Below are positions 2,853 through 64,000 of a stretch of DNA of 64,000 nucleotides, in pieces. A program made the position numbers and the translations under genes. Each line of letters begins with the position of its first letter. Position 1 is the stretch's first letter. Location of the stretch: positions 2,170,001 through 2,234,000 of the forward strand of contig CP021423.1 of the NCBI GenBank assembly GCA_002162075.1. Reading direction: 5' to 3'. The stretch comes from Armatimonadetes bacterium Uphvl-Ar1 (GTDB taxonomy: Bacteria > Armatimonadota > Fimbriimonadia > Fimbriimonadales > Fimbriimonadaceae). The notes beneath the pieces are model-generated. The model was not told the DNA's origin, ran no database searches, and was given only the letters and a program-made list of their open reading frames with translations.

Positions 2853-3388
2853 ACTTCCAGCTCAGCAGAGAATCACAATTCCATCTGTTCGTGCGCATTG
2901 GCGCAACCGCAATGGTTGGATACGTCCTCCTCTCACTACCGGGCCTCATTGCTACTAACCAAAAAGTAAACTCGGAGCTATCTCGATTAGCGAGCCTCAC
3001 GCCCACTCAAGAACCCGCAAACGAAGACCCCACAGTCAAGCGAACTGCAGAAAGTGAAATGTCGCAGTCAATTCGAGACTTTTCCCAATTCGTCGCTAAG
3101 GTCGCCTCAAACAACAACCTCACGCTTGAAAAAATCACTGGATCATCATCAGAAAATCCCGTGACAATCGGCGAGAGCACAAGTGCCGAACTGAGTAACT
3201 CTGATATCGAATTCACCCTCACCGGCCAAACCAAGGATCTCTACGATGCCCTGGTTGCCCTCAACGAAGATGATCTGGCTTTTCGCATCCGCGCTATTCA
3301 AATGGGGCGCAACGCCAACATCAATGCCAAAAACGAACCAAGCAGCCTCACCGTCCGTGCCGAAATTTACGCACGAACAAGCATCTAG
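2849..3388 (+). CDS. pilO: PilO-like inner-membrane pilus assembly protein
   Basis: A 179-residue protein with a single membrane helix at about residues 17-37 (VRIGATAMVGYVLLSLPGLI), a helical linker and a ferredoxin-like periplasmic domain, as in PilO/GspM. It would pair with PilN to form the alignment subcomplex between the inner membrane and the secretin. Sequence similarity in this family is low, so the call depends on size, topology and its place between PilN-like and PilP-like genes. The start overlaps pilN by ATGA. Confidence 0.78.
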   Translation: MNFQLSRESQFHLFVRIGATAMVGYVLLSLPGLIATNQKVNSELSRLASLTPTQEPANEDPTVKRTAESEMSQSIRDFSQFVAKVASNNNLTLEKITGSSSENPVTIGESTSAELSNSDIEFTLTGQTKDLYDALVALNEDDLAFRIRAIQMGRNANINAKNEPSSLTVRAEIYARTSI

Positions 3389-3395
3389 GAAATCC

Positions 3396-4154
3396 ATGCA
3401 ACTTCCACAAAATCCCCGTCTCGTATTCGGACTCATCACTGGAGTCGTCGCCGTCACAATTCTCGGAGTCGGAGTTGGGCAATTCAACGCTCCAGCCATA
3501 GAAATCTCCACGCCACCATCAAAATCAGATTCACCCCTCGCATCCCAATCGACCGAACTCACAATCCCAAAACTCACTGTCGATCCGTTCGCAATGCGAT
3601 CCCAACTCGAGGAAATAGCAAATCCTGAAACTCCCTCACAAACCACGAACCCGAGCATGAGTCAAACAACTCCAACTCAACCTCAACCAAGTTTTACAAG
3701 CTCAAGTCCGCAACGCACCTCCGCAAACCCCCAAATCGCTCCGTTCAACCCCCGAGAAATATCAGGATCAATTCCTGAAGAACCAAACGTCAGTCCACTT
3801 CCAAACTCGTCAAACCCCCAATTCTCAGACTTCCCGCCCGTTAACCCAACCTCAAATGATCCAGGTTCGAATCCGGACAACCTTCTTCCACAATACGATA
3901 ACGCAGCGAGTCCAACACCTCAAATCCCAGAACCACCCAAGAATCCAAATTCTGTCCGATTGACCGCTATCATTATCTCAAAAACTCCTACCGCATACAT
4001 TGCTTTAGGTAACAACTCCGCCGTGGCCTACAAAGAAGGCGAAACCATCAAACCTGGTTTGAAAATAATCAAAATTACGAGCGAAACCGTGACTTTACAA
4101 AAAGCCGGTAAAAGTGCTACACTCTCCGTCGGCAAAGACGGAGTGTTGCCTTGA
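3396..4154 (+). CDS. PilP/GspC-like secretin-linking protein
   Basis: The ATG at 3396 follows an AGGA ribosome site at 3387-3390. The 252-residue product has an N-terminal membrane anchor (residues ~10-28), a long Pro/Ser/Thr/Asn-rich linker of about 130 residues, and a C-terminal beta domain of ~65 residues containing YKEGETIKPGLKI and ETVTLQKAG. That layout matches the GspC homology region and PilP, which connect the inner-membrane complex to the secretin. The linker is unusually long for PilP and closer to GspC. It sits directly before the secretin gene with a TTGA overlap. Confidence 0.72.
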   Translation: MQLPQNPRLVFGLITGVVAVTILGVGVGQFNAPAIEISTPPSKSDSPLASQSTELTIPKLTVDPFAMRSQLEEIANPETPSQTTNPSMSQTTPTQPQPSFTSSSPQRTSANPQIAPFNPREISGSIPEEPNVSPLPNSSNPQFSDFPPVNPTSNDPGSNPDNLLPQYDNAASPTPQIPEPPKNPNSVRLTAIIISKTPTAYIALGNNSAVAYKEGETIKPGLKIIKITSETVTLQKAGKSATLSVGKDGVLP

Positions 4155-5677
4155 CAGTAATCGGATACTTGCTCGCGCAAGTTCTGGTCCCTGAGCTGAG
4201 CGCCCCGCCAACAACGGATTTGTTGGCATTAACTCAAACTCAGGCAACCGGGACAAGGAAAGTCACCTCGGACGGATCTAATACCGTTCGCCTTACTTCA
4301 TCACGAGTTCAAAACATAGTTGCTGAACTCAAACCCACCCCCGAACCCGCGCCTGCTCAGCAGTCGCCTGTTCCGGCACCAATTCCAATCGGACAAAGAA
4401 GGGCTACCCTCAATGCGTCAAATTGGGAGCTATCCAACGCCCTCAGAGCGATCAGCCAAGAAACTGATGTCAACATCACCTTGGCTCATAAAGAAGACCC
4501 CAAAATCACTGTCCAACTGCGTGACATGCAGCTAGAAGAAATTTTGAGAGTCCTGGCTGCGCTCACAGACCTCAAATTTCTGCAAATTGACGAAAGTTAC
4601 GTCATGGCAACGGTTGAAGTATTGGAAGCGAGTTTCCCTAGGGAATTTGCTGAGCAATACCCTAACCTCGCCAAAGGCTTACCCGACGAAATCGTCGTCA
4701 AATCCTACACCGTCTCTCATGTCTCGGCTCGACAAGCGGTCGAAACTCTAAAAGGACTGCTCAAAGAAAGCGAAGCCATCGGCGTTGCTGTTGGCCCATC
4801 TCCCGATGTGCCCGATATCACTGTCGGATCAAGCACTTCTATCCGGAATGAAGGAAATTCAGGTGGGACAACCGGCGGGAACTCAGCGGGGGTCCAAACC
4901 GGTCAAGCGGAACTCGGTAACGGGCGCACCATAATGCTGCGCGGACCTCAAAAGCAAGTTAAAGAAGCCCTCAAGCTTTTGAGAGAAATTGACAGCCCTC
5001 GGCCCCAAGTGAACATCCAAGTCCAGATCATGGACGTCAGCAACGACGCCATGAGAGAACTTGGAATTAGCTGGAGCTTCGGCAACGTCAACCTCACGGA
5101 GCGAACACCCGCGGGAATCGCCTTTGAAACCCTTGATCGAGGCCCCCAAACTTTCCAAGGCATCATCAAAGCCCTGGAGAAGAACGGCAATACCAAGATA
5201 CTCGCTGAGCCCAATCTTGGCGTTCTCGATGGACAAAGCGCGTACATCCTCATCGGTGACCGTATCAACTACCCGGTCGTCATCGGACTCTCCGATAACA
5301 ACACCCCCATCTATGACATCAAAGAGGAAAAAGTGGGCGTCTACTTCCAAGTCGGCGCAAACATCACGGAAGAAGGCGAGATCATTCTCAATCTCTTCCC
5401 CCAAGTGAGCTCCATCACCGGATTCCTTAATGTCAATGGAGCCAGCTACCCCCAAGTCTCAACTCGAGAAGCCCGAACGATCATGAGGATCACTAGCGGC
5501 GAGACCATCGCCGTAGCGGGACTCATCCGCAACGAAGAAATCGAAAGTTGGGAAAAAGTGCCAATCCTGGGCGACATCCCCCTCCTCGGCGAGTTGTTCA
5601 AAAAACGCAAGACCACGCGCAACAACTCTCAAGTAATGATCTTCATTACGCCGACAATAATGGAGGATGAGTCTTGA
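4151..5677 (+). CDS. pilQ: Secretin, PilQ/GspD family
   Basis: Outer-membrane secretin of 508 residues starting at a TTG that overlaps the preceding stop. A short hydrophobic N-terminus could be a signal peptide. An N0/STN-like domain (TLNASNWELSNALRAISQET) is followed by N-domains, a Gly/Ser/Thr-rich loop near residues 225-255, and the secretin core with VAVAGLIRNEE and VPILGDIPLLGELF, the signature of the family. It forms the channel for the pilus or pseudopilus. Compared with classical PilQ it lacks AMIN domains, so a GspD-like arrangement is equally possible. Confidence 0.93.
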   Translation: MTVIGYLLAQVLVPELSAPPTTDLLALTQTQATGTRKVTSDGSNTVRLTSSRVQNIVAELKPTPEPAPAQQSPVPAPIPIGQRRATLNASNWELSNALRAISQETDVNITLAHKEDPKITVQLRDMQLEEILRVLAALTDLKFLQIDESYVMATVEVLEASFPREFAEQYPNLAKGLPDEIVVKSYTVSHVSARQAVETLKGLLKESEAIGVAVGPSPDVPDITVGSSTSIRNEGNSGGTTGGNSAGVQTGQAELGNGRTIMLRGPQKQVKEALKLLREIDSPRPQVNIQVQIMDVSNDAMRELGISWSFGNVNLTERTPAGIAFETLDRGPQTFQGIIKALEKNGNTKILAEPNLGVLDGQSAYILIGDRINYPVVIGLSDNNTPIYDIKEEKVGVYFQVGANITEEGEIILNLFPQVSSITGFLNVNGASYPQVSTREARTIMRITSGETIAVAGLIRNEEIESWEKVPILGDIPLLGELFKKRKTTRNNSQVMIFITPTIMEDES

Positions 5678-7373
5678 TCGCGCACTGAATGAAATACTGG
5701 TAGAAGAAGGGTACGTCACCCGGCAAGAACTCCAAGAAGCCCTCGTCCACCGAGTCGATTCGCACGACTCGGTGGTCGATGCACTTTTGCGGCAAGGAAA
5801 AATCAGTGTCGCACAGAAACTCAAATGTGTCGGACTTCAAACTGGAATCCCATTCATTGATCTGAAAAACATTAAGATCGATAGCCAAGCCGCCCGTCTC
5901 ATCTCTCAACGGCTAAGCGACAAACTCCGCGCGATCATCTTAGAAGCCCACACCGATTACGTTGTTGTCGCTCTCCAAAACGCCCTTGATCTCAAAGCCA
6001 TCGACGAGATCGCCGACGAGACGGGACGACGCGTCGAACCGGTCTGGGCCACTGAATCCGACATCACCGACAAAATTTCTGAGGTCTTTGGTGCCTTCAC
6101 CGATCTCGAACAAATCTTAAATTCCAACGTCCAGCTCGACGACTCAATCGAGATTGAACCGGATACCGATGAATCCGAAAACATTATCAACATCGAGGAG
6201 CAAACTGACTCCAGCCCCGTTATCCAATTCGTGAATGGACTTGTCGTCCGCGCGATCCGCCTCCGCGCCAGCGATATCCACATCCAACCCCTGTCCAAGA
6301 CCGTCAAAATCAAATTCCGGATTGATGGTGTCATTCGCGACATCATGGAAATCCCCAAAGAAATCCACCGCGCCGTCGTCAGCCGGATCAAAGTCATTTC
6401 CGGTCTCGACATCGCCGAACGCCGCGTACCCCAAGATGGACGGGCTTCCCTTATAACTTCCGAAGGCGAATACGACTTTCGCGTCGCAACTTACCCCAGC
6501 GTAAATGGCGAAAAGATAACAATCCGTGTCCTCGATAAACAAGGCGGAATCAAGCCAATCCGCCACATCGGCATGGATCAATCCGCCCTCCAAAGACTTC
6601 TTTGGGCCGTAGACCAGTCGCAGGGCTTGATCCTCATTACCGGTCCAACCGGCTCCGGAAAAACCACAACGCTCTACGGACTGCTGAACCATGTCAACCA
6701 AGGTGACCGGCAAATCATCACGGTTGAAGACCCCGCCGAATACCAAATTGACGGCATCGTCCAAGCCAACGTCAATCGCGCCGCCGGCATGACTTTCGCC
6801 GCCGGGCTCAAAGCAATTCTCCGAGCTGACCCCGACGTGATCCTCGTCGGAGAGTCGCGCGACCCAGAAACCGCCAAAACTTCAATCGAAGCCGCGCTCA
6901 CAGGTCACCTCGTCCTCACCAGCCTTCACGCCAACGACAGCGCGGCAGCCCTCACCCGCCTCATCGAAATGGGAATCGAAGAGTTCCTTGTCAGTGCTTC
7001 CGTCACTTGCAGCGTAGCCCAACGACTTCTTAGATGCAACTGCAAAGAATGCTCCGAGCCATATTCTCCCAATCCCGAACTTCTCGAAAAACTCAACCTT
7101 CCAACCAACGCCGAATACAAGCGCGGCATCGGATGCCCCAAATGTGCCGATACTGGCTACAAAGGTCGAATGGGGATCTACGAAGTCATGGAAATGACCA
7201 ACGGAATTCAAAAGCTCCTTCTCTCCGGTGCCCCGGCAGCAGAAATTCGCAAATTCGCACGCCAAAACGGAATGCTCACCATGATGGATGACGCCGCTCT
7301 GAAAGCTCAAGCTGGCCTCACCACAGTCGAAGAAGTTGCCCGGGTCATCGCCGCCGAGGATTTTGAATCGTGA
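5667..7373 (+). CDS. pilB: Pilus assembly ATPase, PilB/GspE family
   Basis: A 568-residue motor ATPase. The N-terminal ~160 residues form an MshEN (GspE_N) domain that in relatives can bind cyclic di-GMP. The ATPase core has Walker A GPTGSGKTTT, an Asp box, Walker B VILVGESRDPET (Ser replaces the usual Ile in GEIRD) and a His box SLHANDSAAALTRL. A tetracysteine zinc motif (CNCKEC and CPKC) follows, typical of PilB/GspE extension ATPases rather than PilT. It hydrolyses ATP to polymerise pilin at the inner membrane. The ATG at 5667 directly abuts a GGAGG and overlaps the secretin by 11 nt. Confidence 0.96.
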   Translation: MSLDRALNEILVEEGYVTRQELQEALVHRVDSHDSVVDALLRQGKISVAQKLKCVGLQTGIPFIDLKNIKIDSQAARLISQRLSDKLRAIILEAHTDYVVVALQNALDLKAIDEIADETGRRVEPVWATESDITDKISEVFGAFTDLEQILNSNVQLDDSIEIEPDTDESENIINIEEQTDSSPVIQFVNGLVVRAIRLRASDIHIQPLSKTVKIKFRIDGVIRDIMEIPKEIHRAVVSRIKVISGLDIAERRVPQDGRASLITSEGEYDFRVATYPSVNGEKITIRVLDKQGGIKPIRHIGMDQSALQRLLWAVDQSQGLILITGPTGSGKTTTLYGLLNHVNQGDRQIITVEDPAEYQIDGIVQANVNRAAGMTFAAGLKAILRADPDVILVGESRDPETAKTSIEAALTGHLVLTSLHANDSAAALTRLIEMGIEEFLVSASVTCSVAQRLLRCNCKECSEPYSPNPELLEKLNLPTNAEYKRGIGCPKCADTGYKGRMGIYEVMEMTNGIQKLLLSGAPAAEIRKFARQNGMLTMMDDAALKAQAGLTTVEEVARVIAAEDFES

Positions 7374-8599
7374 TCAGTTATCAATACGAAGCCGTAGATC
7401 GCTCCGGCAAACGGATGAAAGGGGCAATCCAAGCCCCAAACCTCTCCGCAGCTGAAGCCAAACTCGATGCCCAACGCCTTACCCCGCTCTATGTCGTCGA
7501 AGGTGGAAGCGAACTCACCGTTGAAAATCTGTCTCAACAGCAATTCAGCTTTTATAAGCGCACCAAAGCCTCCCCCGACGAAATTATTGATATTCTCCGA
7601 TCCCTCGCGGTCATGATCAAAAGCGGCGTTAATCTCATCGAATCTCTGGACACAATCAGCCAACACGCCACCAGCGAACCCGCCAAACAAATAGCCGCTC
7701 AGCTCCGCCAAAGTATTCTCGATGGTCAATCAATTGACCTCGCCATGCGCAATGTCCCGGACGCCTTTCCGGATGTTGTCTGCGAAATGCTCGCCGTCGC
7801 CGATGAAGGAGGAAACCTCGCTAAATCAATTTACGGTGCAATTCACTTCATGGAGCAGCAACAAAAGACCAAGACCTCTATCAAGTCTGCCCTCGTCTAT
7901 CCCGCAGTATTGATGGGTGTTTCAGTCGTCACCTTGCTCCTTTTCATGATTGTCATCCTGCCGACATTCGGCAAAACATTTGAAGGGCTCAACGTCAAGC
8001 TACCAGCAATCACCCAGATTCTCCTCACGACGGGAGAATTCCTCAAATCAAATATAACAAGCCTCATTTTTGGTCTCGTTATGCTCACAATCGGAGCAAA
8101 ATACGCCCTCCGGCTCCCCAAAGTCAAAGCCTTTGTTAATACAGCAACTTACCGAATTCCCATGTTCGGCAAGGTGCTCCAAGAACTCGCCCTTGCCCGA
8201 TCAGTCCAAACGTTCGGTTCGCTGCTCGAAACCAATATCCCCGTCATGATGGCAATCCAATTTGCCGGACGAGTGGCCGGTTACCACCCCTTAACCCAAG
8301 CCTACAGTGCCGTTGAGTCTCGGGTCGAAAACGGTGACACCATCGCGGACTCAATGGCCAAGACCAAAGCATTTCCCGCCATGACCGTTCAATTGGTCAG
8401 CGTCGGTGAAAAATCCGGACAACTCGCACCCCTGCTCATTACCGCCGGAGAGCAATCCCAAGAGTCTGCCGAACGCAAGATGAAAGCCGTCCTCTCCCTC
8501 CTCGAACCCATGTTTATCTTAGTGATGGGAGCCATCGTTGGTGCCCTTGTTCTCTCGATCCTCATGCCCCTGTTCAGCCTCAACCAGAGCATCAAGTAA
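7370..8599 (+). CDS. pilC: Pilus platform membrane protein, PilC/GspF family
   Basis: A 409-residue polytopic protein with two T2SSF repeats (about residues 70-195 and 275-400) and three membrane helices, near 170-195, 215-240 and 375-400. It forms the inner-membrane platform that PilB turns. The GTG start overlaps the pilB stop (GTGA). The first ~55 residues, beginning ISYQYEAVDRSGKRMKGAIQ, are the usual cytoplasmic lead-in of the family. It is followed 7 nt later by a pseudopilin gene. Confidence 0.95.
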   Translation: MISYQYEAVDRSGKRMKGAIQAPNLSAAEAKLDAQRLTPLYVVEGGSELTVENLSQQQFSFYKRTKASPDEIIDILRSLAVMIKSGVNLIESLDTISQHATSEPAKQIAAQLRQSILDGQSIDLAMRNVPDAFPDVVCEMLAVADEGGNLAKSIYGAIHFMEQQQKTKTSIKSALVYPAVLMGVSVVTLLLFMIVILPTFGKTFEGLNVKLPAITQILLTTGEFLKSNITSLIFGLVMLTIGAKYALRLPKVKAFVNTATYRIPMFGKVLQELALARSVQTFGSLLETNIPVMMAIQFAGRVAGYHPLTQAYSAVESRVENGDTIADSMAKTKAFPAMTVQLVSVGEKSGQLAPLLITAGEQSQESAERKMKAVLSLLEPMFILVMGAIVGALVLSILMPLFSLNQSIK

Positions 8600-13150: not shown

Positions 13151-13765
13151 ATGAGTCAATACCAACGCGTCGGAGACTGGATGGTCGAAAACAAAGTCAT
13201 CAGCGAACAGCAACGAGACGAAGCCCTCCGCCTTCAAAAAGAATCCAAACAGCGATTCGGTGAAGTTCTCATCTCACTCGGATACATCACCGAACGCCAA
13301 GTTGTCGAATGCCTCTCCCGACAATACGACCTTCCAATCTGCGAACTGAGCGAAGTCAAACCATCCGAAACCGCTCTTCGCCTCGTCAGCCCAACGTTTG
13401 CCCTCAGCCGACTCATCCTTCCCCTCAAAGTCACCGCGACAGAATTCCATTGCGCCATCTGCGATCCCCTCGATATCGAAGGCACCGACTACCTGACCAA
13501 AGCCCTCGGCAAACGACTCCACATTTCAATCGCCGGACCAGGCGAAATCTTTGATGCCATCGCACAAAACTACGCGATGCCAACCGCAAAGAAATCTGCT
13601 CCGCTCACTGTCGAATCAGCCGCTCCCGAAAAGCCCAAAACCAAAGCCGCTCCCACCAAAAAATCCCGACCCACCAAAGTCCACGAACAAACCGACCGCC
13701 GTGAACTCCTCGCCGCAATCGCCGGAACCGGCTCCGAAAGTATCTGGGACACATTCCAAGACTAA
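13151..13765 (+). CDS. MshEN (GspE N-terminal) domain protein
   Basis: A 204-residue protein. Residues ~5-150 form a complete MshEN fold: VGDWMVENKVISEQQRDEAL, then RFGEVLISLGYITERQVVEC and LSRQYDLPICEL, the type of motif that binds cyclic di-GMP in MshE/GspE-type ATPases. The second half contains LILPLKV and CDPLDIEG, the usual C-terminal subdomain. It has no ATPase core, so it is a stand-alone sensor or adaptor. A Lys/Pro linker ends in an acidic segment RRELLAAIAGTG. It lies 23 nt before a MinD/FlhG-like ATPase, probably in one operon. CAGGGG at 13135-13140 supports the start. Confidence 0.82.
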   Translation: MSQYQRVGDWMVENKVISEQQRDEALRLQKESKQRFGEVLISLGYITERQVVECLSRQYDLPICELSEVKPSETALRLVSPTFALSRLILPLKVTATEFHCAICDPLDIEGTDYLTKALGKRLHISIAGPGEIFDAIAQNYAMPTAKKSAPLTVESAAPEKPKTKAAPTKKSRPTKVHEQTDRRELLAAIAGTGSESIWDTFQD

Positions 13766-13788
13766 ATTTTAAGGACAAACACAAAGAA

Positions 13789-14547
13789 ATGCTCACCATC
13801 GCAATCACCAGTGGAAAAGGCGGAGTCGGAAAAACCAGCTTCTCCGCAAACCTCGCCGCCGCCCTCGCCGAAACTGGGGCCAAAACCACCGTATTCGACG
13901 CCGATCTCCAACTCGCTAACCTGGACATCGCCCTCGGAATCACCCCCGAATTCAACCTCCAACATGTCGTCGCCGAGCAAAAAACTCTGTCCGAAATCCT
14001 CGCCGACGCCCCCGGAGGGATCAAAGCCATTACCGGAGCCAGTGCCGTCCCTTCCCTCATGCGCGCCGGCCCCAAAAAGCTCAACCTATTTTTCAGCCAA
14101 CTCGCTGACCTCAGCAAATCCACCGATTTTCTGATCTTTGACTGCGCCGCTGGACTCGAAAACCGCGTCCTCAGCTTCCTAAAACTCAGTGACGAAATCA
14201 TCCTGGTTGCAAGCCCTGATCCCACCAGCATCACCGACGCTTACGCCACCGCAAAAACCATCTTTCGACGACGACCCGATGCCCGCATCCACGTCGTTTT
14301 CAACCAAGCCACCGCCCACGAAGGCCAAAAGCTCTTCAAAATGTTCGAGAAAATCATTTGGAGCTACCTCCACAAAAAAGTGGAATATCTCGGCTCAGTT
14401 CGATTCGACCAAATGGCCGCCCTCGCCACCCGCAAACGCGAGCTTGTCGTCGTCCAAACCCCCGATGCCAAAGCATCCCAAGATATCCGCGCCCTCGCCC
14501 AACAAGTCCAACAATGGCGCACCCAAAACCTCAAAAAAGCTAGCTAA
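13789..14547 (+). CDS. MinD/FlhG-like P-loop ATPase
   Basis: A 252-residue SIMIBI ATPase with the deviant Walker A motif SGKGGVGKTS at residues ~7-16, the switch-like DADLQLANLDIALG and the Walker B-like FLIFDCAAGL. The DLQLANLD(I/V) segment is typical of FlhG/YlxH-type MinD relatives, which place flagella or pili at defined sites. The C-terminal ~30 residues are polar and show no obvious MinD-type membrane helix. With the MshEN protein upstream it forms a two-gene unit closed by a strong terminator. A second such ATPase occurs at 53968-54798. Confidence 0.9.
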   Translation: MLTIAITSGKGGVGKTSFSANLAAALAETGAKTTVFDADLQLANLDIALGITPEFNLQHVVAEQKTLSEILADAPGGIKAITGASAVPSLMRAGPKKLNLFFSQLADLSKSTDFLIFDCAAGLENRVLSFLKLSDEIILVASPDPTSITDAYATAKTIFRRRPDARIHVVFNQATAHEGQKLFKMFEKIIWSYLHKKVEYLGSVRFDQMAALATRKRELVVVQTPDAKASQDIRALAQQVQQWRTQNLKKAS

Positions 14548-34291: not shown

Positions 34292-34657
34292 ATGAAGTTC
34301 GTCCTTGTCTCAAAAGACCCCGAAGTTGTCAAGGCAACCGAAGGCGCATTCCAACCCGACGACGAACTCCTGATCTTTGACACCTGGCCCCCGGCCCTCG
34401 AAGCGTGCACCGACGCCGACCTCCTCTTTGTCGATCTCATCGCAACTCTCGACAAACCCCACAAAATCGCCGGCTATGAGAAATTTGCCGAAGCGAAAAT
34501 GGATCACCCCACAGCAAACACCACTCCCCTTGTCCTCATTGCCCAACCAGATGACTACGAGCTCGACTTCATGGCGGGCTACCCAAACTTTGTTTTTGCC
34601 CACCTCCGCCGTCCAATCACTTACAAAATTTTCCGCCGCGCCAGTACTTGGGTCTAA
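34292..34657 (+). CDS. Degenerate receiver-like (CheY-fold) protein
   Basis: A 121-residue single-domain protein whose strand/helix order fits a response-regulator receiver: KFVLVSKDP, DELLIFDTW, DADLLFVDLIATL, TPLVLIAQPDD and FVFAHLRRPITYK. The Asp of LFVDL could be the phosphorylation position, but the acidic pair after strand 1 is reduced to one Asp and the conserved Lys before Pro is Arg. It may be a pseudo-receiver. The promoter places the transcript start at the ATG. Function unknown. Confidence 0.6.
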   Translation: MKFVLVSKDPEVVKATEGAFQPDDELLIFDTWPPALEACTDADLLFVDLIATLDKPHKIAGYEKFAEAKMDHPTANTTPLVLIAQPDDYELDFMAGYPNFVFAHLRRPITYKIFRRASTWV

Positions 34658-53967: not shown

Positions 53968-54798
53968 TTAAGCCGCTTTGTTTTCTGTCTCTTCCGTCTT
54001 CTTTCCAAAAACGCTCTTGATCCGTCCCAACATCGAAATCTCTTCTGTAGCCTCAGCCTCAACCCCAAGTCCCATAATCGCATTTGCCGCATCCACCAAA
54101 TCCTGACTCGGACCCGCCGTAGGAAAAGCACTCGCAAAGATACGTCGTTCCGCACATGCGCGCGCAACAAGAGAATCATGTCGAACTGACCCCCAGTACT
54201 CCAATTCTTGGCTTAAAAATTGACCCACAATTCCTTGCACCTCGCTCGCAACTCCACGACCCTGGGCCGAAGAACCAACATGGTTTACAACCAATCCCGC
54301 CGATAGACTCGGATTCACATCCCAAGCATTTTTGAGCAAAGCATAACCGTCCATCAAACTCGCCGCCTCACTCGTCGTCACCACCATCAAACCCTGACTT
54401 GCCCGCAAGAACGGAAATACTCGGTTCCCCACCCCCGGAGCACAGTCGATCAAAACATGATCGTATGTATCCGCTAACACCATCAAATCCCCAACCAAAG
54501 CATCGATCTCCGCCCCTTCAAGCTGAGCCAACTCCTTCCACCCACTTCCCCCAGAAATCAGATCAAACCCGGCTTTCGTCGGCACAACAGCATCGCGCAA
54601 TTCGCGACCGTCTCGAACAATGTGCCCAAGCGTACAACCCACCTCGATCCCCGAATAAACATCACAGTTCGGCAAGCCTAAGTTGCCATCAAACAGGAGA
54701 ACACGTTTTTGATCTCCCGCAATGATTGCCGCAATACTACAAGCAAGCGCCGTCTTACCGACTCCGCCTTTACCACTACAAATTGCGACCGTTTTCAT
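53968..54798 (-). CDS. MinD/FlhG-like P-loop ATPase (second copy)
   Basis: A 276-residue ATPase with SGKGGVGKTALACSIA as deviant Walker A, the LFDGNLGLPNCDVYSGIEVG switch region and VLIDCAPGVGNRV. The key Asp of DADLGxAN is Gly-Asn here (DGNLGLPNCD), so ATP handling may differ from classical MinD. The start at 54798 has GGAG 7 nt upstream. The C-terminal ~40 residues are polar with Lys. It lies 16 nt downstream of the EIxALL/MshEN-like protein, matching the gene pair at 13151-14547. Confidence 0.9.
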   Translation of the reverse strand: MKTVAICSGKGGVGKTALACSIAAIIAGDQKRVLLFDGNLGLPNCDVYSGIEVGCTLGHIVRDGRELRDAVVPTKAGFDLISGGSGWKELAQLEGAEIDALVGDLMVLADTYDHVLIDCAPGVGNRVFPFLRASQGLMVVTTSEAASLMDGYALLKNAWDVNPSLSAGLVVNHVGSSAQGRGVASEVQGIVGQFLSQELEYWGSVRHDSLVARACAERRIFASAFPTAGPSQDLVDAANAIMGLGVEAEATEEISMLGRIKSVFGKKTEETENKAA

Positions 54799-54814: not shown

Positions 54815-56589
54815 CTAAGCTATCTTCTTCCACAAATCGCCCATTTTTTCTCTCAAACTAGGTCGTCTCTGAGCCCCTGACATCACCGCAAACCGAGCGT
54901 GATAGTCCTGAACTTCGGCGTACGCTTCCCGCAATCCTGCGATGACTTGGTCAATCGGTGCTGGCTCAACCAAAATCCCAAACCCGATCGCCTGGCTCAT
55001 GCGATCCAAAGCCACACGATCAATCGGTTCAGCAACTTGACACAAAATCTTGCCTTCTTGGAATCGGATCGGCAGGGCCATCGCTCGCACCGCAAAATGG
55101 GCCGGCACCGCTTTGATTGCCCCAATCTCACTGCCGCCGTCCGTATCTTGAGCTTTTGGCTTGGTGAAACTAGCGGGCTCTGATCCAACAAACCCAACCG
55201 TATTCTCCTCCTTGTCTTGAGCTACTGGTTTCTCAACCGGGGCCCCCAGCAACGCCCGCAACTCTTCATCACTCATCGCCGACGACGAGCTCGGAACGAC
55301 TTCACCTGGCTCATCCGGAGTATCAAGAAGAGCCGCAATCTCTGCGGCTGACATGACGCTATCAGCGCGGTTTGCCGCCTCTGCTTCCTCAGCTGCTTTA
55401 GCCTCCGCTGCCGCATCGAGTGCTTCAGCTTGAGCATCAATATTTCCGCGCACAAGCGCAACCAGATCTTCTTCCGTCAATGAATCAAGGTCAAAATCAT
55501 CTTCAATCTCAGGTTCTTCCGGTTTTTCTTCGACTGCCCCCATCTCGATGGCCGCCGCAATCTCATCATCAGAAAGTTCAATTGCCTCTGCTTCGGCCAC
55601 TATAGATTCTGGAGCAACAGTCCCAACCCCATCCGCCCCGCGAACATCGCCGCAATCTGATCAGCCGATAACTCGCCATCATCTGGAATCGCGGCTAAAT
55701 CCTGAACCGAAACCTCAGTAACCTCCCCAGCAAACATCGCCGCAATCTGATCCGCCGATAGTTCGCCATCATCTGGAATCGCTGCTAAATCGACTGCTGA
55801 AACAGGTGCGCTCACGTCAATGTTCGCACTCACTTCGGTTTGCTCTTCCTCGACCACTTCCGACATGACTTCGTCAAATCCACTCAACAACGCCCCGGAT
55901 TCTTCCGGCGTTAGCGACGCATCTTCTTCGTCGTCTTCCAAATTAAAGGCTTCGATCGCTCCAATCAAGCCCGGGAACTGCGCTTCAATCTCATCAGAAT
56001 CAACCGCCTGCTCAACGTACTCGTCATCAGAGTCGTTCGCATAAAAATCAGCCGGCATCTCATCCGGATGTTCCGACGCAAGATCAATCTCTTCTTGCGT
56101 CACCTCAAGACTCATCCCTGTAGCCTCCGTCGCGTTAAATTGGGCAACTTCTGCCAGCAGCCCCGGATGCTTCTCTTCAAATCGAGGAACGTTCAGGGAA
56201 GGTATTTCCACCACCTCTTCATCCAACTCTGGTTGCCAAAAATCATCAGGCATCAAATCCGGATGATCGTTTGCCAGGTCAATCTCTTCCTGAGTCAGCT
56301 CACCCAAACCATAACTTAAATCCGAATCATTTACACATTCCGATTCAGGCTGAGCAATAACCTCTTGAACTACGGGAGCTACAACTTGCGTCCGCAATTC
56401 GCCCACTTCCGCGGTCAGCGTCTGAATCTGCGCCATCAATTGGGTCAAAACATCTGCCGGAACCGCCACGGTTGTCACTTCAGCTACGACAGGCTCAGCC
56501 GGAACAACAACTTTTGCCTTAGGAGAACGCGTTCGTTTCTCCACTTGCTGTACCTCCTCAACCGATTCTTTCTTCTTCCGCGCCGGCAT
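54815..56589 (-). CDS. Long acidic protein with repeated EIxALL motifs and half-MshEN domain, one apparent frameshift
   Basis: Two frames join into 591 residues if one G is added to the run opposite C4 at 55636-55639; the motif pattern continues smoothly across the join. A basic N-terminus and short coiled coil precede two ~65-residue repeats (TQEEIDLANDHPDLMPDDFW; TQEEIDLASEHPDEMPADFY). Then come LTPEESGALL, two copies of IPDDGELSADQIAAMFAG, LSDDEIAAAI, LTEEDLVALV, MSAAEIAALL and MSDEELRALL. Residues ~490-565 (VPAHFAVRAMALPIRFQEGK, CQVAEPIDRVALDRMSQAIG) match only the C-terminal half of MshEN. LSxxEIxALL resembles the EIDALL peptide of FliM/FliN, which binds CheY-P in FliM. Probably a scaffold; function unknown. 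Confidence 0.72.
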
Positions 56590-56664: not shown

Positions 56665-59427
56665 TCAATCGTTTTCTTCCGAAGAGTGATCTTGACGTTT
56701 TTTCTTCGCCGCCAACAAACTCCCAGCCGTGGAAATCGGCTCAGCCTTCTCGACTGTTTTTTCCCTTTTTGCTCTCCGTGTGCGCATGACCGGAGCTCGA
56801 TTAGCCAAACCATCAATCCGAGAAACCGAAGCTTTGACAGGCTCCTCGTCTTCGGCCCGCTTCCGTCCAAAAGCAGGCAGCGGAACCACAACCCGCCGCA
56901 CCAAAACATCCAAAGGTAACAAGAACAAAGCCGCCAAAAGGAACAAGCGCCACAAGTCCGCCACGCTTTCGCCCCGGTTCGCGATCTCCCGCATAGCCTC
57001 CTGACCTCCTTCTAATATCTTCCCTCCTGTGACACTCGCCAATCCTTCCAATAACGGCAAATTCGTCATCGAACTCCGATACTCTGGAGGATAAGGTATC
57101 GAAAAACCGTTGCTCGCAACCCGCGCCTCACCTTGTCCCCCCGGCTCAACCACTGAAACAATATAACTTCCTACCTCGCTCGCGTCAAAATCTCCCAAAA
57201 ACACCCCCGGTGCCTCCTGGGTCAGAACTGCTTTCTGTGAATTCCCCGCCGGATCGCTCACCCGAACTTCCAAAGAATCTTGTGTCAGCGGATTCCCACT
57301 GCGATCACGTGCCTGGAGTCGGATCACCCCTTTCCCCCCTTCTGGTGAAACTTGCAAATCGTAATTATTCACCGCCGCTTTCCGCGTCAAAGTCCGCACC
57401 GCTTGTGCCCAAAACTGTCCAAATCCTCCCCATCGAACCCACTCACTCGCCCACCGGTTCTGAGCATCACTCGTAAACGCCATCGAGCGACCAAGGCCAT
57501 ACTGCCAACTCGCCAGAAGCGGATCATCTTTCTGAGTTCGCATCGTCACCCGCGCCAAAGGACGAGCCTCCGTCAAACAGTAAGCCATCAATGCCGGAAA
57601 ACCGTCGAGTCCCCTAGTCACTTCATCGCCCCCAATCACCTTGGGAGTGAACGCACCCTCCTCAATCGCTGACCTCGACATCAAGCTCACATCCTGAGTG
57701 AAAATCTGCGGCAACTTCTTGGCGTCATCCACAAAGTAATGTCGTCCGCCCCCGACTGCAGCCAGATTCTTCAAAAACGGAACATCCTTCCCGTCCCCAA
57801 TCGCTACTGTTGACACCGTAATCTTGTCCGCTTTCATTGCTGCCGCAATCGCAAGACTCGTACCGTGTTGGTCACAGTCCGCACCATCCGCCACCAAAAT
57901 GAAGTGCCGAACCCGCGTATCTTCCTGCCCCAATTTCTCCTGGGCAAACTTCACCGACGGCTCCGCAAAAATCCCCCCTCCACCATCCTTCAACAGCCGA
58001 ACTTTACTCTTGACCGCCCCCTTGTCTTTCAGCTCCGCAATCGGAGCAACATAGTCCACTCGACTGCCACTCCCTGCCACCCCGAGCCGATCAGTTGGCC
58101 CCAGGAGATCGGTCGTCAAAACCGCCGCATTTGCCGCCATCTGGAGCTTGGTCACCCCTCCGATATTCATCGACATACTCCCGCTGGTATCCACCACAAT
58201 CAACACCGAAGTATTCGGAAATACTTTTCTCTGCCGGATATTCAAATCAACTGGGAGAGCTTCAGCCACCGGAGTTCCGTACCATCCTCCGGGCAGAAAA
58301 CTATCCTCACCCCCAATCATCATCAAGCCGATCCCACTATCCCGAACCGCATTTCGAAGCATCCGCATTTGTAGATCAGTAGTCAAAGAAGCGTTAAAAT
58401 CATTCAAGATCACCGCGTCATAAACCTGCAAATCCTCCGGTCGGGCTGGCATCATACTTGCCCCACCCAGCTGAACCGTTATCCCTTGCTCGCTCAATGC
58501 CGTGGCCAATTCTCGTTTCGAAGTGTCTCCTTGAATCAGCAAAATCTTGGGCCGACCCTTTACCGCCACAAACGCAGCCCCCAAGTTATTCCGATTGTCT
58601 GAATCCTCCGGCACCTCCAAAAATGCTCGATAACGATAAAACCCAGGATCTTTCAACTCCTGGTTGACCACAACCGTCGAAGTCCCTGCTGGAATACTGA
58701 CCGGAACTTCAGAAACCGCTTCGCCATTCCGTTCGATCACGAGCCGCCCAGACTGTGCCACCGATGATTCAACCACCGCTCGAATCTCAAAAGGCTGATC
58801 AGCCGACTGTTCACTCGGCGCACTCAACTCCAATATCGCCGCTTCCGCACGCCCCTTGTCCAATCCGAGCGGAACAATATCAACCGCAACTCCTTCGGCC
58901 GCGATACTCTCAATTGCCCCCAAAGCATCACCTTTCGTCTCGTTCCCATCACTCAAAACCACGATGCGCCGACTCTTTCCGCTCGGAAAACTCGCCATCG
59001 CCAACCGCAACGCTGCCCCCAAATCACTCGCCGAACCATCAACGACCGATTCAACTTCGTTAAATGGGCGACGACCACCCGGTGCTGCTTCCATCGCCGG
59101 AACACCGCCGAATGCGACAATTCCCACACGATCATCCTCCCCCATTCCCCGCATTGCTTCATTCACAAAGTCAATCTGCTTCTTTCGGTCTTTCTCGCCA
59201 ATACTGTCCGACCGATCCACCACGAATAGCGTCGTCATTCCCCGATTCGGACGCACCGACTGCGGCCCCATGAGCGCACCAATAAGCGCACCCAAAAGCA
59301 AAAATCGTAGCCCAATCGCAATTGCTTTCCGCACCGGAACCATTCCATGAACTCGGCTCCAGCTCATGACCAATCCCACAATGAGCGGAATGAACAACAA
59401 ACCCCAAATCGGCTCTATAAATCTCAT
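56665..59427 (-). CDS. Membrane protein with two von Willebrand A-like domains and an amidotransferase-like fold
   Basis: A 920-residue protein. Helices near residues 7-24 and 34-53 anchor it. A first vWA domain with MIDAS-type DRSDSIG (residues ~69-75) is followed by a beta domain, a class I amidotransferase-like segment (RPKILLIQGDTSKRELATAL, IGGEDSFLPGGWYG) and a second vWA domain with DTSGSMSMNIGG. A helix lies near residue 810 before a Lys/Arg-rich tail. It is the last gene of the MoxR-DUF58-BatA operon and probably part of an envelope-associated AAA+/vWA complex. Exact substrate unknown. Confidence 0.85.
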   Translation of the reverse strand: MRFIEPIWGLLFIPLIVGLVMSWSRVHGMVPVRKAIAIGLRFLLLGALIGALMGPQSVRPNRGMTTLFVVDRSDSIGEKDRKKQIDFVNEAMRGMGEDDRVGIVAFGGVPAMEAAPGGRRPFNEVESVVDGSASDLGAALRLAMASFPSGKSRRIVVLSDGNETKGDALGAIESIAAEGVAVDIVPLGLDKGRAEAAILELSAPSEQSADQPFEIRAVVESSVAQSGRLVIERNGEAVSEVPVSIPAGTSTVVVNQELKDPGFYRYRAFLEVPEDSDNRNNLGAAFVAVKGRPKILLIQGDTSKRELATALSEQGITVQLGGASMMPARPEDLQVYDAVILNDFNASLTTDLQMRMLRNAVRDSGIGLMMIGGEDSFLPGGWYGTPVAEALPVDLNIRQRKVFPNTSVLIVVDTSGSMSMNIGGVTKLQMAANAAVLTTDLLGPTDRLGVAGSGSRVDYVAPIAELKDKGAVKSKVRLLKDGGGGIFAEPSVKFAQEKLGQEDTRVRHFILVADGADCDQHGTSLAIAAAMKADKITVSTVAIGDGKDVPFLKNLAAVGGGRHYFVDDAKKLPQIFTQDVSLMSRSAIEEGAFTPKVIGGDEVTRGLDGFPALMAYCLTEARPLARVTMRTQKDDPLLASWQYGLGRSMAFTSDAQNRWASEWVRWGGFGQFWAQAVRTLTRKAAVNNYDLQVSPEGGKGVIRLQARDRSGNPLTQDSLEVRVSDPAGNSQKAVLTQEAPGVFLGDFDASEVGSYIVSVVEPGGQGEARVASNGFSIPYPPEYRSSMTNLPLLEGLASVTGGKILEGGQEAMREIANRGESVADLWRLFLLAALFLLPLDVLVRRVVVPLPAFGRKRAEDEEPVKASVSRIDGLANRAPVMRTRRAKREKTVEKAEPISTAGSLLAAKKKRQDHSSEEND

Positions 59428-59428
59428 A

Positions 59429-61252
59429 TCATGACCGCCTCATAAAAACTAGCCACTCCAAAACCAAAACTCCCATCATCAAAGCAATCAACGGCTTCCA
59501 CAAGTCCGCAAATCGCTCCATCGGCTTCGTTTGGACAGCCTCACCCCCCGCAATCGCAAACTCCGAAACCGGCGCAATCTCTGATTCCCGCTCCGAGGTC
59601 ATATTCACCAAATATTCCCGGACATCTTCTCCCTCTCCAACCGAATAGCGACCAACTCGGTCAAATCCTCTCAAGGTGAACCGACCGTTCAACGCCCTGA
59701 CCGACTCCGTCTCCGCCGGACCTTTCACCACAAGCACTTCTCCATCACGCCCCGGAATACCGATCGTTTGCCCTGTCACCAACGTCGAAAACCCGCGCTG
59801 CCGCTCGCCTACCGCCAAGTCAACAAGATTCCCCAACAATATAGGAAAACTCACGCTCAGCGGAAAATCGCCATCCAGCAAGTCAAATGCGAAGTAAAGC
59901 TGTCGTTTCGGCGCATCTCGCTGCACAACGAGCGCCCCCTGAGAATTCTGAGCCAACACCCGCGACCCCGCCTTCGGCTTTGCCGCGTAAACGTTGGCTA
60001 AATAGACCCCTTCAAAACTCACTCCCTCCAATACCCCCGTCTCCTCAACAGAAATCACGTCCGGAGTTCCCAACTTTGCCCCCACCTCCGCCGCCGTGTT
60101 CTTCCCACCGACTCCAAAAGTCACCGTCATAGGAGCTTTAACCGCAACCTCCGGCACCGAGTCAAAAATTACCAAATCATAATTGCCCGCACCTCCATTA
60201 CCAACCAATTCAGAATTCGGCACCGTCGCTGCTTTGTCCAAAACAACTCGTGCATCCAAATTCAGCCCCGTCTCCAAAAATAGATTCCCCCGTGTCACAA
60301 GCAACACGCGCAACGAACCCGATGGATCACCCGGAACCATCCGCTCATCATCTGCTGACAGAAACCCACCTTCACTCACCCGCGCCCGAACAACCGAAAC
60401 ATCACCTGGAACAGCAACGGTTCGTCCTACCGTTCCCCCCGCCGGAACTTCAACCTCAGCCGAAAAAATTGCCCGGTCATCCGCATAAACCGTCAAAGGT
60501 GTTTGGGCGGCTTCAGACCCAAAATTCTTGACCCCCACATAAGCCTGTAAACCCTTCGGCGTCTCCGATGTTCCTAGGGCAGTGACCGCCAAGTTCGCAC
60601 CCGATTTCCCAATCGGCTCAAAAACAATCTCCGATTTTCCCCGGCTCACCTCACCTACAGGCTCAAAAACCCCATCGCTCAAAACAACTATCCGAGAGGT
60701 GGCATCACGCCCCACCAAAGCCATTGCAAGCCGCAAACTTTCACCCAAATCACCCGGAGCATCACCGCGCCTCAAGCTCTCAGCCCCTTGCTTCAACCTA
60801 GCCGGATCATTCGCCAAACCCGTCACGACCCTCGGCGATGCCCCCGCCTCAATTAGTGCCATCTGATCCCCCGGCTTCATCGCCGCAATCAACTCCTCCG
60901 CCCGCTTCACCGCTACCCCAAACCGATCCGGGGCGACGTCCGTCGCTCCCATACTCGCACTTCCATCGACAATCAAAACCGTCGTTAAACCCTGGACATT
61001 TTCCTGACGCATTTGCCACCTAGCCAACCCCATGACCAAAAACGCCAATGCCACCAACTGCAAAACCCACAGCCAATTAAATTTCAACTTCTGAAAAAGC
61101 GAATTGGCTCGCACCTCATCCTCTCGCTCAGGCCACAAGAAGCTCGCCGGAATCACGAAATCACGTCGGCGCAAACGTAACAAATACAACGCCAAAATGA
61201 ACCCCCCAACCGGCAAAAACCACAACAAACTCTGAGGTGACTGAAAGCTCAT
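59429..61252 (-). CDS. BatA/vWA-domain membrane protein
   Basis: A 607-residue protein with an N-terminal BatA-type membrane region (SLLWFLPVGGFILALYLLRL, then WLWVLQLVALAFLVMGLARW), a vWA domain carrying DGSASMG and a large beta-rich extracytoplasmic part, ending in a helix (LIALMMGVLVLEWLVFM). The start overlaps the DUF58 stop by 4 nt. It belongs to the widespread MoxR/DUF58/BatA clusters, proposed to assist folding or assembly of other proteins. Confidence 0.86.
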   Translation of the reverse strand: MSFQSPQSLLWFLPVGGFILALYLLRLRRRDFVIPASFLWPEREDEVRANSLFQKLKFNWLWVLQLVALAFLVMGLARWQMRQENVQGLTTVLIVDGSASMGATDVAPDRFGVAVKRAEELIAAMKPGDQMALIEAGASPRVVTGLANDPARLKQGAESLRRGDAPGDLGESLRLAMALVGRDATSRIVVLSDGVFEPVGEVSRGKSEIVFEPIGKSGANLAVTALGTSETPKGLQAYVGVKNFGSEAAQTPLTVYADDRAIFSAEVEVPAGGTVGRTVAVPGDVSVVRARVSEGGFLSADDERMVPGDPSGSLRVLLVTRGNLFLETGLNLDARVVLDKAATVPNSELVGNGGAGNYDLVIFDSVPEVAVKAPMTVTFGVGGKNTAAEVGAKLGTPDVISVEETGVLEGVSFEGVYLANVYAAKPKAGSRVLAQNSQGALVVQRDAPKRQLYFAFDLLDGDFPLSVSFPILLGNLVDLAVGERQRGFSTLVTGQTIGIPGRDGEVLVVKGPAETESVRALNGRFTLRGFDRVGRYSVGEGEDVREYLVNMTSERESEIAPVSEFAIAGGEAVQTKPMERFADLWKPLIALMMGVLVLEWLVFMRRS

Positions 61253-62136
61253 TCCACCCAGCCACCTTTCTTGAATATCTCCCCAAAAATCTGACTGACC
61301 CCCGCGTCGCTCCCCACTAAAGCGTATCGCCCCCCGTACCGCTTGACCGTTTCTTCAATCAAGGAATTGTGCAACGCCAAGTTCTTTCGATACTCCGCCA
61401 AAGTCGGACCATTTGCCGTGATCTCAACCGCCGCACCACTCTCCGCATCAATCAAGCGCAAATCCCCTTCAATCCCCGGATCTAGCTCAAACGGCGACAA
61501 CACTTGGACAACCCAAATCTCATGCCCCGCCGCCGTCAATTGGGCAAGCGAACCCCCAAGGCTCTGATCCATACCGTCTGTCAAAACCACCGCCAAACCC
61601 GTGCGAGACATCAATTTCGCCGCTTGTTTAAGGTGATACGAAACCGGACGAACTCCGTCCATTCGTAAGCTCTCCAACCACCCCATCAACTGCACCGTTC
61701 CCCGCCGACCTCTCAAGAATCGGGTCCGGTTCACCCCGTCATTCAAAGACATCCCCATGACAGAATCACCCGCCCGACTCGCTACCACCCCAAAAGCCGC
61801 CCCAAGTCGCTTAACTGCTCCCCCCTTTCCTGGTTCACCGTAATCCATGCTCTTAGAACAATCAACCAAAAGGTAAACAGGCAAGTCCTCTTCGTCCTGG
61901 TATGTCTTGACAATTGGAACCCCCAATCGAGCCAGAACATTCCAGTCCAAATGCCGCAAATCATCCCCATCCGCATACTCCCGATAATCTTTGAATTCGA
62001 GCGAAACCCCTTTCTCTTTCGCCAAACGCTCACCTCGTACCCGACCCGTAAAAGACTTTCGTGGCTTCAGACGCAACCGCTCCAGTACCCGTACATCACG
62101 GATGTCAAGAAGCGGAGTCAGGGTCTGTTCACTCAC
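61249..62136 (-). CDS. DUF58 domain protein
   Basis: A 295-residue protein with the DUF58 signature FKDYREYADGDDLRHLDWNV and LPVYLLVDCSKSMDYGEPGK, a vWA-like fold with Asp-x-Ser-x-Ser. No membrane segment. DUF58 proteins are partners of MoxR-type AAA+ ATPases. It overlaps both neighbours by ATGA-type junctions, indicating tight co-expression. Confidence 0.9.
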   Translation of the reverse strand: MSEQTLTPLLDIRDVRVLERLRLKPRKSFTGRVRGERLAKEKGVSLEFKDYREYADGDDLRHLDWNVLARLGVPIVKTYQDEEDLPVYLLVDCSKSMDYGEPGKGGAVKRLGAAFGVVASRAGDSVMGMSLNDGVNRTRFLRGRRGTVQLMGWLESLRMDGVRPVSYHLKQAAKLMSRTGLAVVLTDGMDQSLGGSLAQLTAAGHEIWVVQVLSPFELDPGIEGDLRLIDAESGAAVEITANGPTLAEYRKNLALHNSLIEETVKRYGGRYALVGSDAGVSQIFGEIFKKGGWVE

Positions 62137-63125
62137 ACTTTGATCGGGTCTTTGTCGCCCGCATTAACCATCTCAACAATGCCATCAACCACTTGGTCAG
62201 CCGTGACGCCATCCGCTTCAGATTCATAATTCATGATCAGTCTATGCCGCAGAACGGGCTTGGCCGCTTTCACTACATTTTCCTTACTCACGTTGAACCG
62301 ACCCTCCAACATCGCAAAGACTTTGCCCGCCGTAATGATCGCTTGTGCACCTCGTGGAGAGGAGCCATAACGCACATACTTCTTCGCCATGGTCGCCGCT
62401 GATTCACTATCCGGATGACTCGCAACAATAATCGAGAGAGCGTAATCCAAAACCTCAGGACTCACACTGACCTCGCGAGTGATCTGTCGCGCTCGGATCA
62501 AGTCTTCCGCGCTGGCCACGCGCTGAACCTGCGCCATCTCCCCTTGAGTTGTGCGGTTCACAACCTCTGCAAGCACTGCTTTACTAGGATAAGGCACCAA
62601 GAGCTTAAAGAAAAACCGGTCAAGCTGAGCTTCCGGAAGAGGGTAGGTTCCCTCCTGCTCCACCGGGTTTTGAGTTGCCATCACCATGAACGGCTCATCC
62701 AAATGGTGGACTTTTCCTCCGACCGTCACCTGACGCTCTTGCATCGCTTCCAGCAACGAACTTTGCGTTTTCGGTGTCGCCCGGTTGATCTCATCCGCTA
62801 AAACAAAATGCGCAAATACTGGACCGCGTCGGAATTCAAATCCCCCAGCTTGGGTAAAAACGTTCGTCCCGGTCACATCCGCTGGCATCATGTCTGGCGT
62901 GAATTGAATTCTCGAAAAGTCCAAATCCACCGCCTGCGCCATCGTGCGGATCAAAAGCGTCTTCCCCAGTCCCGGCATCCCCTCAAGCAAAACGTGACCG
63001 TTCGCCGCCAATGCGACCAGAACTCCCTCCACAACATCATCCTGTCCAACGACAACCTTGCCAATCTCACTCCGCAAAGATGTCCATGTATTTCTGAACC
63101 ACTCCGCTGCCTCTAGTCCTTTCAT
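62133..63125 (-). CDS. MoxR-family AAA+ ATPase
   Basis: A 330-residue ATPase with Walker A EGMPGLGKTLLIR, Walker B HFVLADEINRATPKTQSSLL and the MoxR-typical LEAMQERQVTVGGKVHHLDE and MATQNPVEQEGTYPLPEAQL. It acts as a chaperone-like motor on vWA-containing partners, which are encoded in the next three genes. It follows the Gln/Met-rich protein by 3 nt. Confidence 0.95.
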   Translation of the reverse strand: MKGLEAAEWFRNTWTSLRSEIGKVVVGQDDVVEGVLVALAANGHVLLEGMPGLGKTLLIRTMAQAVDLDFSRIQFTPDMMPADVTGTNVFTQAGGFEFRRGPVFAHFVLADEINRATPKTQSSLLEAMQERQVTVGGKVHHLDEPFMVMATQNPVEQEGTYPLPEAQLDRFFFKLLVPYPSKAVLAEVVNRTTQGEMAQVQRVASAEDLIRARQITREVSVSPEVLDYALSIIVASHPDSESAATMAKKYVRYGSSPRGAQAIITAGKVFAMLEGRFNVSKENVVKAAKPVLRHRLIMNYESEADGVTADQVVDGIVEMVNAGDKDPIKV

Positions 63126-63128
63126 TGC

Positions 63129-64000
63129 TTAATTTCCTCCTCCCGACAACTGCTCAAAATATTCCTTCACTCTCTCCCGGTGCTTCCCTTTCACTTTGTT
63201 GTTGCTCACCGCCGATTCAGCTGACTTCTTGTAACCAGGCAAAGCCTCTTTGTACGGCACACTGGTCCGGCTTCCCAACATCGTTGGCGCTTTGATTTCA
63301 CTAAAGGAATCGTTCCCTCGTTTCTCATCTCGATCCCCGCGAACCGCTGTGACCTTTCCTTTCCCCTCCAGTTCCATCGGATCATCACGTTTCTCGTTCT
63401 CACCTTCGCCCATGTATTGACCACCTTGGGTTCCACCCTGACCGTCGGTACCACCCATTCCCAACATTTGCATCATCTGTTGCATTTGCTCCAGGTTCAT
63501 ATTGCCTTGGCGCATCTGCTCCATCATCTCTTTCATCGCCTGGCGCATCGCCTCCCGCGCTGCCGGATCTTTCATCATCTCCGCCAACTGCTCCATCTGC
63601 TCTTGCATCTGCTTCATCTGCTCTTCCGTCATCGGTTCCCCTTGTTGCATCTGCTGTTGAGCCTGCTGCATTTGCTTCATCAGCTCCTGCATCTCCTTAA
63701 ACTCCGCCATGTTCTGCAGTTCTTCAAGCGCCTTCTTAACATCCTCGCTCATCTCCAATTTCTGAGCAAGGTTCTCCATCGCTTCCATCTGCTGTTCCAA
63801 AGCCTTTCGCTCACTATCCGAAAGCCCACCTTCGCTTAACTGCTGCTCCGCTTCTTGCTTGGCCCGAGCCATCACTTCCGCCAATCGCTCCTTCTGCGCC
63901 TCACTCATGCGCATCAGTTCGCTCGTCGTCTGGTCTGCCCCAAGAGCCGTCATCATCTGATCGTCAATCTGATCTCCCCGCATCTGGTCAGCCCCCGATT
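63129..64000 (-). CDS. Gln/Met/Glu-rich helical protein (5' end outside window)
   Basis: The frame stays open to the window end, so an in-frame Met at 63983 is probably internal. The visible ~290 residues are almost all helix, with QMEAMENLAQKLEMSEDVKK, QQAQQQMQQGEPMTEEQMKQ and QMQEQMEQLAEMMKDPAARE. Low complexity makes homology unsafe. The C-terminus (RTSVPYKEALPGYKKSAESA and KGKHRERVKEYFEQL) is more ordered. It heads the MoxR operon and may be an extended scaffold, perhaps part of a larger membrane protein. Confidence 0.65.
   Translation of the reverse strand, partial: SGADQMRGDQIDDQMMTALGADQTTSELMRMSEAQKERLAEVMARAKQEAEQQLSEGGLSDSERKALEQQMEAMENLAQKLEMSEDVKKALEELQNMAEFKEMQELMKQMQQAQQQMQQGEPMTEEQMKQMQEQMEQLAEMMKDPAAREAMRQAMKEMMEQMRQGNMNLEQMQQMMQMLGMGGTDGQGGTQGGQYMGEGENEKRDDPMELEGKGKVTAVRGDRDEKRGNDSFSEIKAPTMLGSRTSVPYKEALPGYKKSAESAVSNNKVKGKHRERVKEYFEQLSGGGN

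Follow-up and report, generated by a model that had tools for sequence, protein, structure and literature searches.

Does a protein that carries many short peptides like the N terminus of FliM, and whose gene lies beside that of an FlhG-like ATPase, act as a multivalent docking platform, and if so, for which partner? This question arises from a locus in a 64,000-nucleotide stretch (the window) of the 2.99-Mb genome of a member of the Fimbriimonadaceae (Armatimonadota). A first-pass annotation of the window had proposed such a platform. We find that idea well founded and describe here what the motifs, the neighboring ATPase, and their relatives say about its likely role.

The scaffold gene and its motif array

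The scaffold gene occupies positions 54815-56589 of the minus strand and encodes a single acidic protein (about 590 residues if joined) that is spread over two frames in the assembly. The first-pass annotation had joined these frames, and the join proved sound. Compared with its counterpart in the nearest genome, G006, the window gene has one base fewer in a GGGG run near 55633-55642 (minus strand; run CGGGGCGG), at the end of the second 30-residue repeat unit. The G006 gene is an intact open frame of 629 residues with three copies of that unit, and the window has two. Because of the frameshift, the window gene may be dispensable or misassembled. A single-base frameshift can be a sign of gene decay, but it is very unlikely that this is a pseudogene. 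The frame is open in every other genus member with a complete scaffold gene; the downstream half has no nonsynonymous changes relative to G006 in its motifs, MshEN_C half-domain, or tail; and loss of a base from a GGGG run is a frequent assembly error. Each of the eight genomes in the genus encodes a scaffold homologue, and other genera of the family have homologues as well.

Read from its N terminus, the joined protein has three weak motifs, LTQEEIDLAN (56269-56298), VTQEEIDLAS (56074-56103), and LTPEESGALL (55885-55914). There follow two copies of LSADQIAAMF, one in each 30-residue unit (55732-55761 and 55642-55671, with the frameshift directly after the second), and then LSDDEIAAAI (55547-55576; score, 22.6), LTEEDLVALV (55451-55480), MSAAEIAALL (55325-55354; score, 24.4), and MSDEELRALL (55247-55276; score, 25.8), all on the minus strand. 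The first-pass annotation had counted about nine motifs. All nine peptides are present, but the count is generous: with a score built from FliM N-terminal peptides of the same order (LSQDEIEALL and variants; threshold, 20), only LSDDEIAAAI, MSAAEIAALL, and MSDEELRALL are strong, and the others are weaker. Motif number is not kept in relatives, with 0 to 7 strong copies per scaffold across the family (consensus, [LM]SxDEIxALL), but the spacing of the last two motifs is, at 26 residues in most genus members.

The resemblance to FliM held up when it was scored. In 12 scaffolds, 44 motif matches exceeded the threshold, whereas about 1 was expected (shuffled scaffolds gave 0.17 per 1,000 residues at a score of 20). 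Most scaffolds have such copies, which are internal and serial, and none is an N-terminal peptide as in FliM. When a strict degenerate DNA pattern for the motif was run against the whole genome of G004, it matched only FliM (once) and the scaffold (three times), and a reversed-control pattern had no matches in that genome. A looser pattern gave a few scattered extra matches. DNA pattern searches across the genus suffer from codon-choice bias and miss some of the motifs.

The strong motifs are under purifying selection, and the linkers are drifting. Between the window and G006, the motif codons of the downstream half have 0 nonsynonymous and 17 synonymous changes, compared with 22 and 43 in the linkers (Fisher P = 0.004). 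Between ACE_ARM7 and ACE_ARM8, the synonymous and nonsynonymous counts are 37 and 12 in motifs and 119 and 111 in linkers (P = 0.002). The most conserved parts of the scaffold are the MshEN_C half-domain, with no nonsynonymous changes between the window and G006, and the tail. Therefore, the strong motifs, MshEN_C, and the tail are selected. For the weaker motifs in the upstream half of the window gene, no clear excess of constraint over the linkers is seen.

Scaffold architecture and the FlhG-like ATPase

A typical scaffold homologue has an N-terminal helix, disordered acidic linkers with motif helices, an MshEN_C half-domain, and an amphipathic C-terminal helix. In the window, the N-terminal helix (PADVLTQLMAQIQTLTAEVGELRTQV; 56383-56460, minus strand) is a predicted coiled coil that is conserved in the genus, and its pLDDT is about 70 to 84 in models of the homologue at locus L090. 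The same models show the motifs as isolated short helices on linkers with a pLDDT mostly below 50 rather than as parts of one folded domain, the alternative raised in the first-pass annotation. The MshEN_C region is modeled as a compact beta-alpha half-domain. In the window it lies at 54911-55123 (minus strand) and matches Pfam PF05157 (E = 1.8e-6; 28.3 bits, cutoff of 23.1) over the C-terminal half of the domain only, so the half MshEN domain named earlier is real. The tandem 24-residue RLG...Q motifs by which MshEN binds c-di-GMP (Wang et al. 2016; PMC5013675) were absent from the 11 array scaffolds checked. At the C terminus is an amphipathic basic helix and putative membrane anchor (SLREKMGDLWKKIA; 54818-54859, minus strand), with a hydrophobic moment of 0.76 against a C-terminus background with a median of 0.39 and a 90th percentile of 0.62. 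No long hydrophobic stretch was seen by eye. The scaffold had no match to the FliM core (PF02154) or a SpoA domain in Pfam (maximum E, 10) and none to LysM or the FimV C-terminal domain in Pfam and NCBIfam. Membership of the FimV/HubP or SpoA families was therefore rejected.

The adjacent ATPase (53968-54798, minus strand) has a deviant Walker motif and was correctly described as FlhG-like. Its nearest PDB sequences are FleN (8e-32) and FlhG (5e-27), with MinD at 1e-13, and a model of an orthologue matched FleN (Z = 35.5; 1.8 Å over 247 residues), FlhG (34.3), and MinD (30.1). The ATPase is closer to FlhG/FleN than to MinD. It has no DQAxxLR activator helix at its N terminus, beginning directly with MKTVAICSGKGGVGK. 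Near its C terminus is an amphipathic helix (SMLGRIKSVFGKK; 53998-54036, minus strand), a putative membrane-targeting sequence, which is basic and has a moment of 0.61, near the 90th percentile of C termini. Most ATPases of loci L021-L031 and L171-L183 end in AA, an ending reminiscent of the Ala-Ala at the C terminus of ClpXP substrates; it occurs in about 9% of all sampled proteins, a set that contains these ATPases.

The pairing was also sought in other Armatimonadota, as the first-pass annotation had suggested. An ATPase homologue directly follows the scaffold in 23 of 23 loci (11 of 11 loci examined at first and 12 further ones), even in genomes where all other neighbors differ. At two of these loci (L030 and L178), no Walker A motif was recognized in the ATPase frame found, and at L172 it reads KGGVGR.

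A paralogous pair is also present in the window. A small protein with a complete MshEN domain and c-di-GMP motif (13151-13765, plus strand; PF05157; 61.1 bits against NF053729, cutoff of 38) is followed by an FlhG-like ATPase (13789-14547, plus strand). The same order of genes, spanning 13151-14547 here, recurs at 12 other loci of the order, and many of these sister-pair partners keep the tandem c-di-GMP motif. In G008, a single 423-residue protein fuses MshEN_C to an FlhG-like ATPase (L098:4902-6173, minus strand). The array protein, we infer, arose as a derived partner within this order-wide pair, losing MshEN_N and gaining FliM-like peptides. Across the order, the pairing of MshEN with FlhG-like ATPases suggests that c-di-GMP is linked directly to a positioning ATPase of the MinD type. 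The literature searched, which covered few subscription journals, yielded no relevant paper linking MshEN with MinD, FlhG, or FleN.

Several variants of these proteins were seen. The sister-pair partners (L016, L095-L110, and 13151-13765 of the window) have a conserved D-R-x-x-L-L-x-A-L peptide (DRDxLLxAL) near the C terminus, which is possibly an ATPase contact. At L095, L096, L102, L103, L106, and L107, the MshEN partner is fused to a degenerate kinase-like domain, lies 5' of the ATPase gene, and has an amphipathic tail of the FWSWLFGRRAA type. Proteins of about 1,000 residues (L179:3979-6993, L180:3177-6023, and L185:3477-6560) contain multiple MshEN_C-like segments set in acidic linkers and carry an amphipathic helix at the C terminus, with no clear motif array and no adjacent ATPase detected. 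G009 encodes a permuted protein (L097:5969-7438) in which MshEN comes first and is followed by an acidic region containing a single LSPDEIASLL and then by a basic tail; no neighboring ATPase was detected in the 12-kb stretch.

What the array might bind

Binding of FlhG to the first 36 residues of FliY does not depend on nucleotide (PMC12327844), and FlhG also binds the FliM N terminus (PMC12826062); the first-pass annotation had omitted both interactions. The EIDALL sequence of FliM is bound by CheY-P (PMC9126983). Two classes of protein are thus known to read the peptide, and the neighboring ATPase is related to one of them.

What we observe is a protein with serial conserved FliM-like motifs and an MshEN_C half-domain, whose gene is strictly linked to that of the ATPase. 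Because FlhG and CheY-P both read the FliM peptide, the best explanation, to which we assign a probability of roughly one-half, is that the scaffold is a membrane-attached, mostly disordered, multivalent mimic of that peptide that works with its own FlhG/FleN-like ATPase. As predicted from sequence, the motifs would be isolated helices on disordered linkers, the amphipathic C-terminal helices of the scaffold and the ATPase would place both at the inner membrane, and the N-terminal coiled coil would oligomerize the adaptor. The MshEN_C half may be the constitutive ATPase contact, because an MshEN protein and the ATPase form an order-wide unit that is fused in one genome. The array peptides would bind readers of the FliM N terminus, most likely FlhG-like ATPases, CheY-P, or both, and many weak sites might concentrate or buffer the partner where the ATPase puts the adaptor. 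Such buffering could limit flagellar C-ring assembly or motor switching in a flagellated lineage that lacks FlhF. More tentatively, then, the two proteins may form a positioning or counting module in which an FlhG-like ATPase, in the absence of FlhF, has its own multivalent FliM-N decoy, with a copy number that varies between species, to titrate C-ring assembly or CheY signaling.

Flagellar genes are present in the genome. FliM was found in 57 of the 61 genomes searched, including that of the window, whose own FliM N-terminal peptide is LSQDEIEALL. FlhF (TIGR03499) was not found above the cutoff in the genus and exceeded it in two other families of the order only. Within the order, the distributions of FlhF and of close FlhG-like ATPases hardly overlap, though FliM is nearly universal. 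Directly upstream of the scaffold are genes for MoxR, DUF58, and two VWA proteins (56665-63983, minus strand), a gene order shared by the genus and G017; these operon neighbors are not flagellar. The first-pass annotation had placed the array in a pilus context. Pilus genes are present, but that picture was incomplete because the genome has flagella too, and the closest functional parallels of the array, FliM and FlhG, are flagellar. A pilus role was rejected: the type IV pilus operon (501-8599) is about 46 kb away, and the pair adjoins the MoxR/DUF58/VWA genes in the genus.

If the adjacent ATPase were the only target, its FliY-type surface might be expected to track the motifs, and it does so inconsistently. 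FlhG residues K177 and F215, which FlhG requires to bind FliY, are present in the window ATPase, in the other seven ATPases of the genus, and in G008 and G011, and the equivalent of R207 is E in the window and E or Q in most of the genus. However, the ATPases of G010 and G017 have lost K177 and F215 even though the scaffolds of these genomes carry some of the most FliM-like motifs, whereas G041 (L174) keeps both residues beside a scaffold with no motif above the threshold. These counterexamples weigh against a model in which the adjacent ATPase, through a FliY-type surface, is the sole target. CheY-P and the second FlhG-like ATPase are further candidate targets. Structure prediction did not help the case for docking. 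At L090, the scaffold and ATPase share a frame, and we translated through the TAG stop, folded the joined chain with AlphaFold, and folded the scaffold alone with identical scaffold alignment rows for comparison. With this shallow alignment, the pLDDT of residues 301-310 was 65 with the ATPase in cis and 79 without it. Because the motif pLDDT was not raised by the ATPase, the prediction gives no support for docking. A fold search with the joined chain listed the ATPase fold alone.

Other readings of the array must be weighed against the mimic. The peptides might dock phosphorylated CheY or other receivers, with the ATPase merely positioning a CheY-P sink or relay in flagellar or pilus signaling. 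EIDALL is the classical CheY-P site of FliM, the motifs are still canonical where the ATPase has lost its FliY-type surface, and the window, G006, and G002 each encode a methyl-accepting chemotaxis protein close to the pair. We nevertheless consider this reading rather unlikely, since only 2 of the 11 relatives' neighborhoods compared have that chemotaxis gene and no receiver gene was identified in the region. At 34292-34657, where the first-pass annotation had placed a CheY-like receiver, Pfam gave no receiver match (E ≤ 0.01), and position 7 of the FliM peptide (D or E) is mostly A in the array. It is likewise unlikely that the motifs are coactivator or recruitment peptides for a site on the adjacent ATPase other than the FlhG-FliY surface, their likeness to FliM being convergence of an acidic amphipathic helix. 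Peptides of ParB and MinE act in this way on ParA and MinD, adjacency is universal and is kept in distant genera where the ATPase surface diverges, and the sister-pair partners carry a different conserved short LL peptide. However, the scores of the most FliM-like array motifs, which include LSEDEIKALL and LSEDEIEALF, exceed what generic convergence would predict, and the missing AlphaFold docking signal counts against this reading as well.

A plainer possibility is that the array is a disordered acidic spacer, in which the motifs simply maintain short helices and recognize no particular partner, and the MshEN_C half and tail are the functional parts. Those are indeed the best-conserved parts, and the number of strong motifs varies widely. 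We consider a spacer quite unlikely, because the motifs are constrained relative to the linkers and the same consensus recurs in many genera.

If the peptides act as the mimic reading predicts, the scaffold would be a multivalent version of an interaction that, to our knowledge, otherwise involves one peptide per protein. It would then offer a natural variable-repeat system for testing how FliM is counted or sensed by FlhG-type ATPases or CheY-P, and it suggests a way in which flagellar number might be managed in flagellated bacteria that lack FlhF.

Comparison with known systems

The layout is built from known parts. The first-pass annotation knew of no described system like it, and neither did we find one in the literature searched (few subscription journals covered). 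With MshEN receptors of c-di-GMP (PilB/MshE type), the scaffold shares the MshEN_C half, and the sister pair has the complete domain. However, MshEN_N and both RLG...Q motifs are missing from the array protein, which is therefore not expected to bind c-di-GMP. With the polar hubs HubP and FimV, the scaffold shares a long acidic cytoplasmic region, and a hub for a MinD/ParA-type ATPase is a functional analogy; unlike them, it has no match to LysM or FimV domains and is made of FliM-like peptides. The ATPase is closest in sequence and fold to FlhG/FleN, the MinD-like protein that acts with FlhF, and it shares a putative C-terminal amphipathic helix and two of three FliY-binding residues. It differs in lacking the DQAxxLR helix, in the lack of FlhF in the genus, and in having an MshEN protein as its partner. 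Finally, the array shares its motif sequence, short-helix character, and disordered placement with the N-terminal peptide of FliM and FliY (EIDALL), which is read by CheY-P and FlhG. In FliM and FliY, that peptide is a single copy at the N terminus of a C-ring protein, whereas in the scaffold, which has no FliM or SpoA domain, it forms an internal, serial array.
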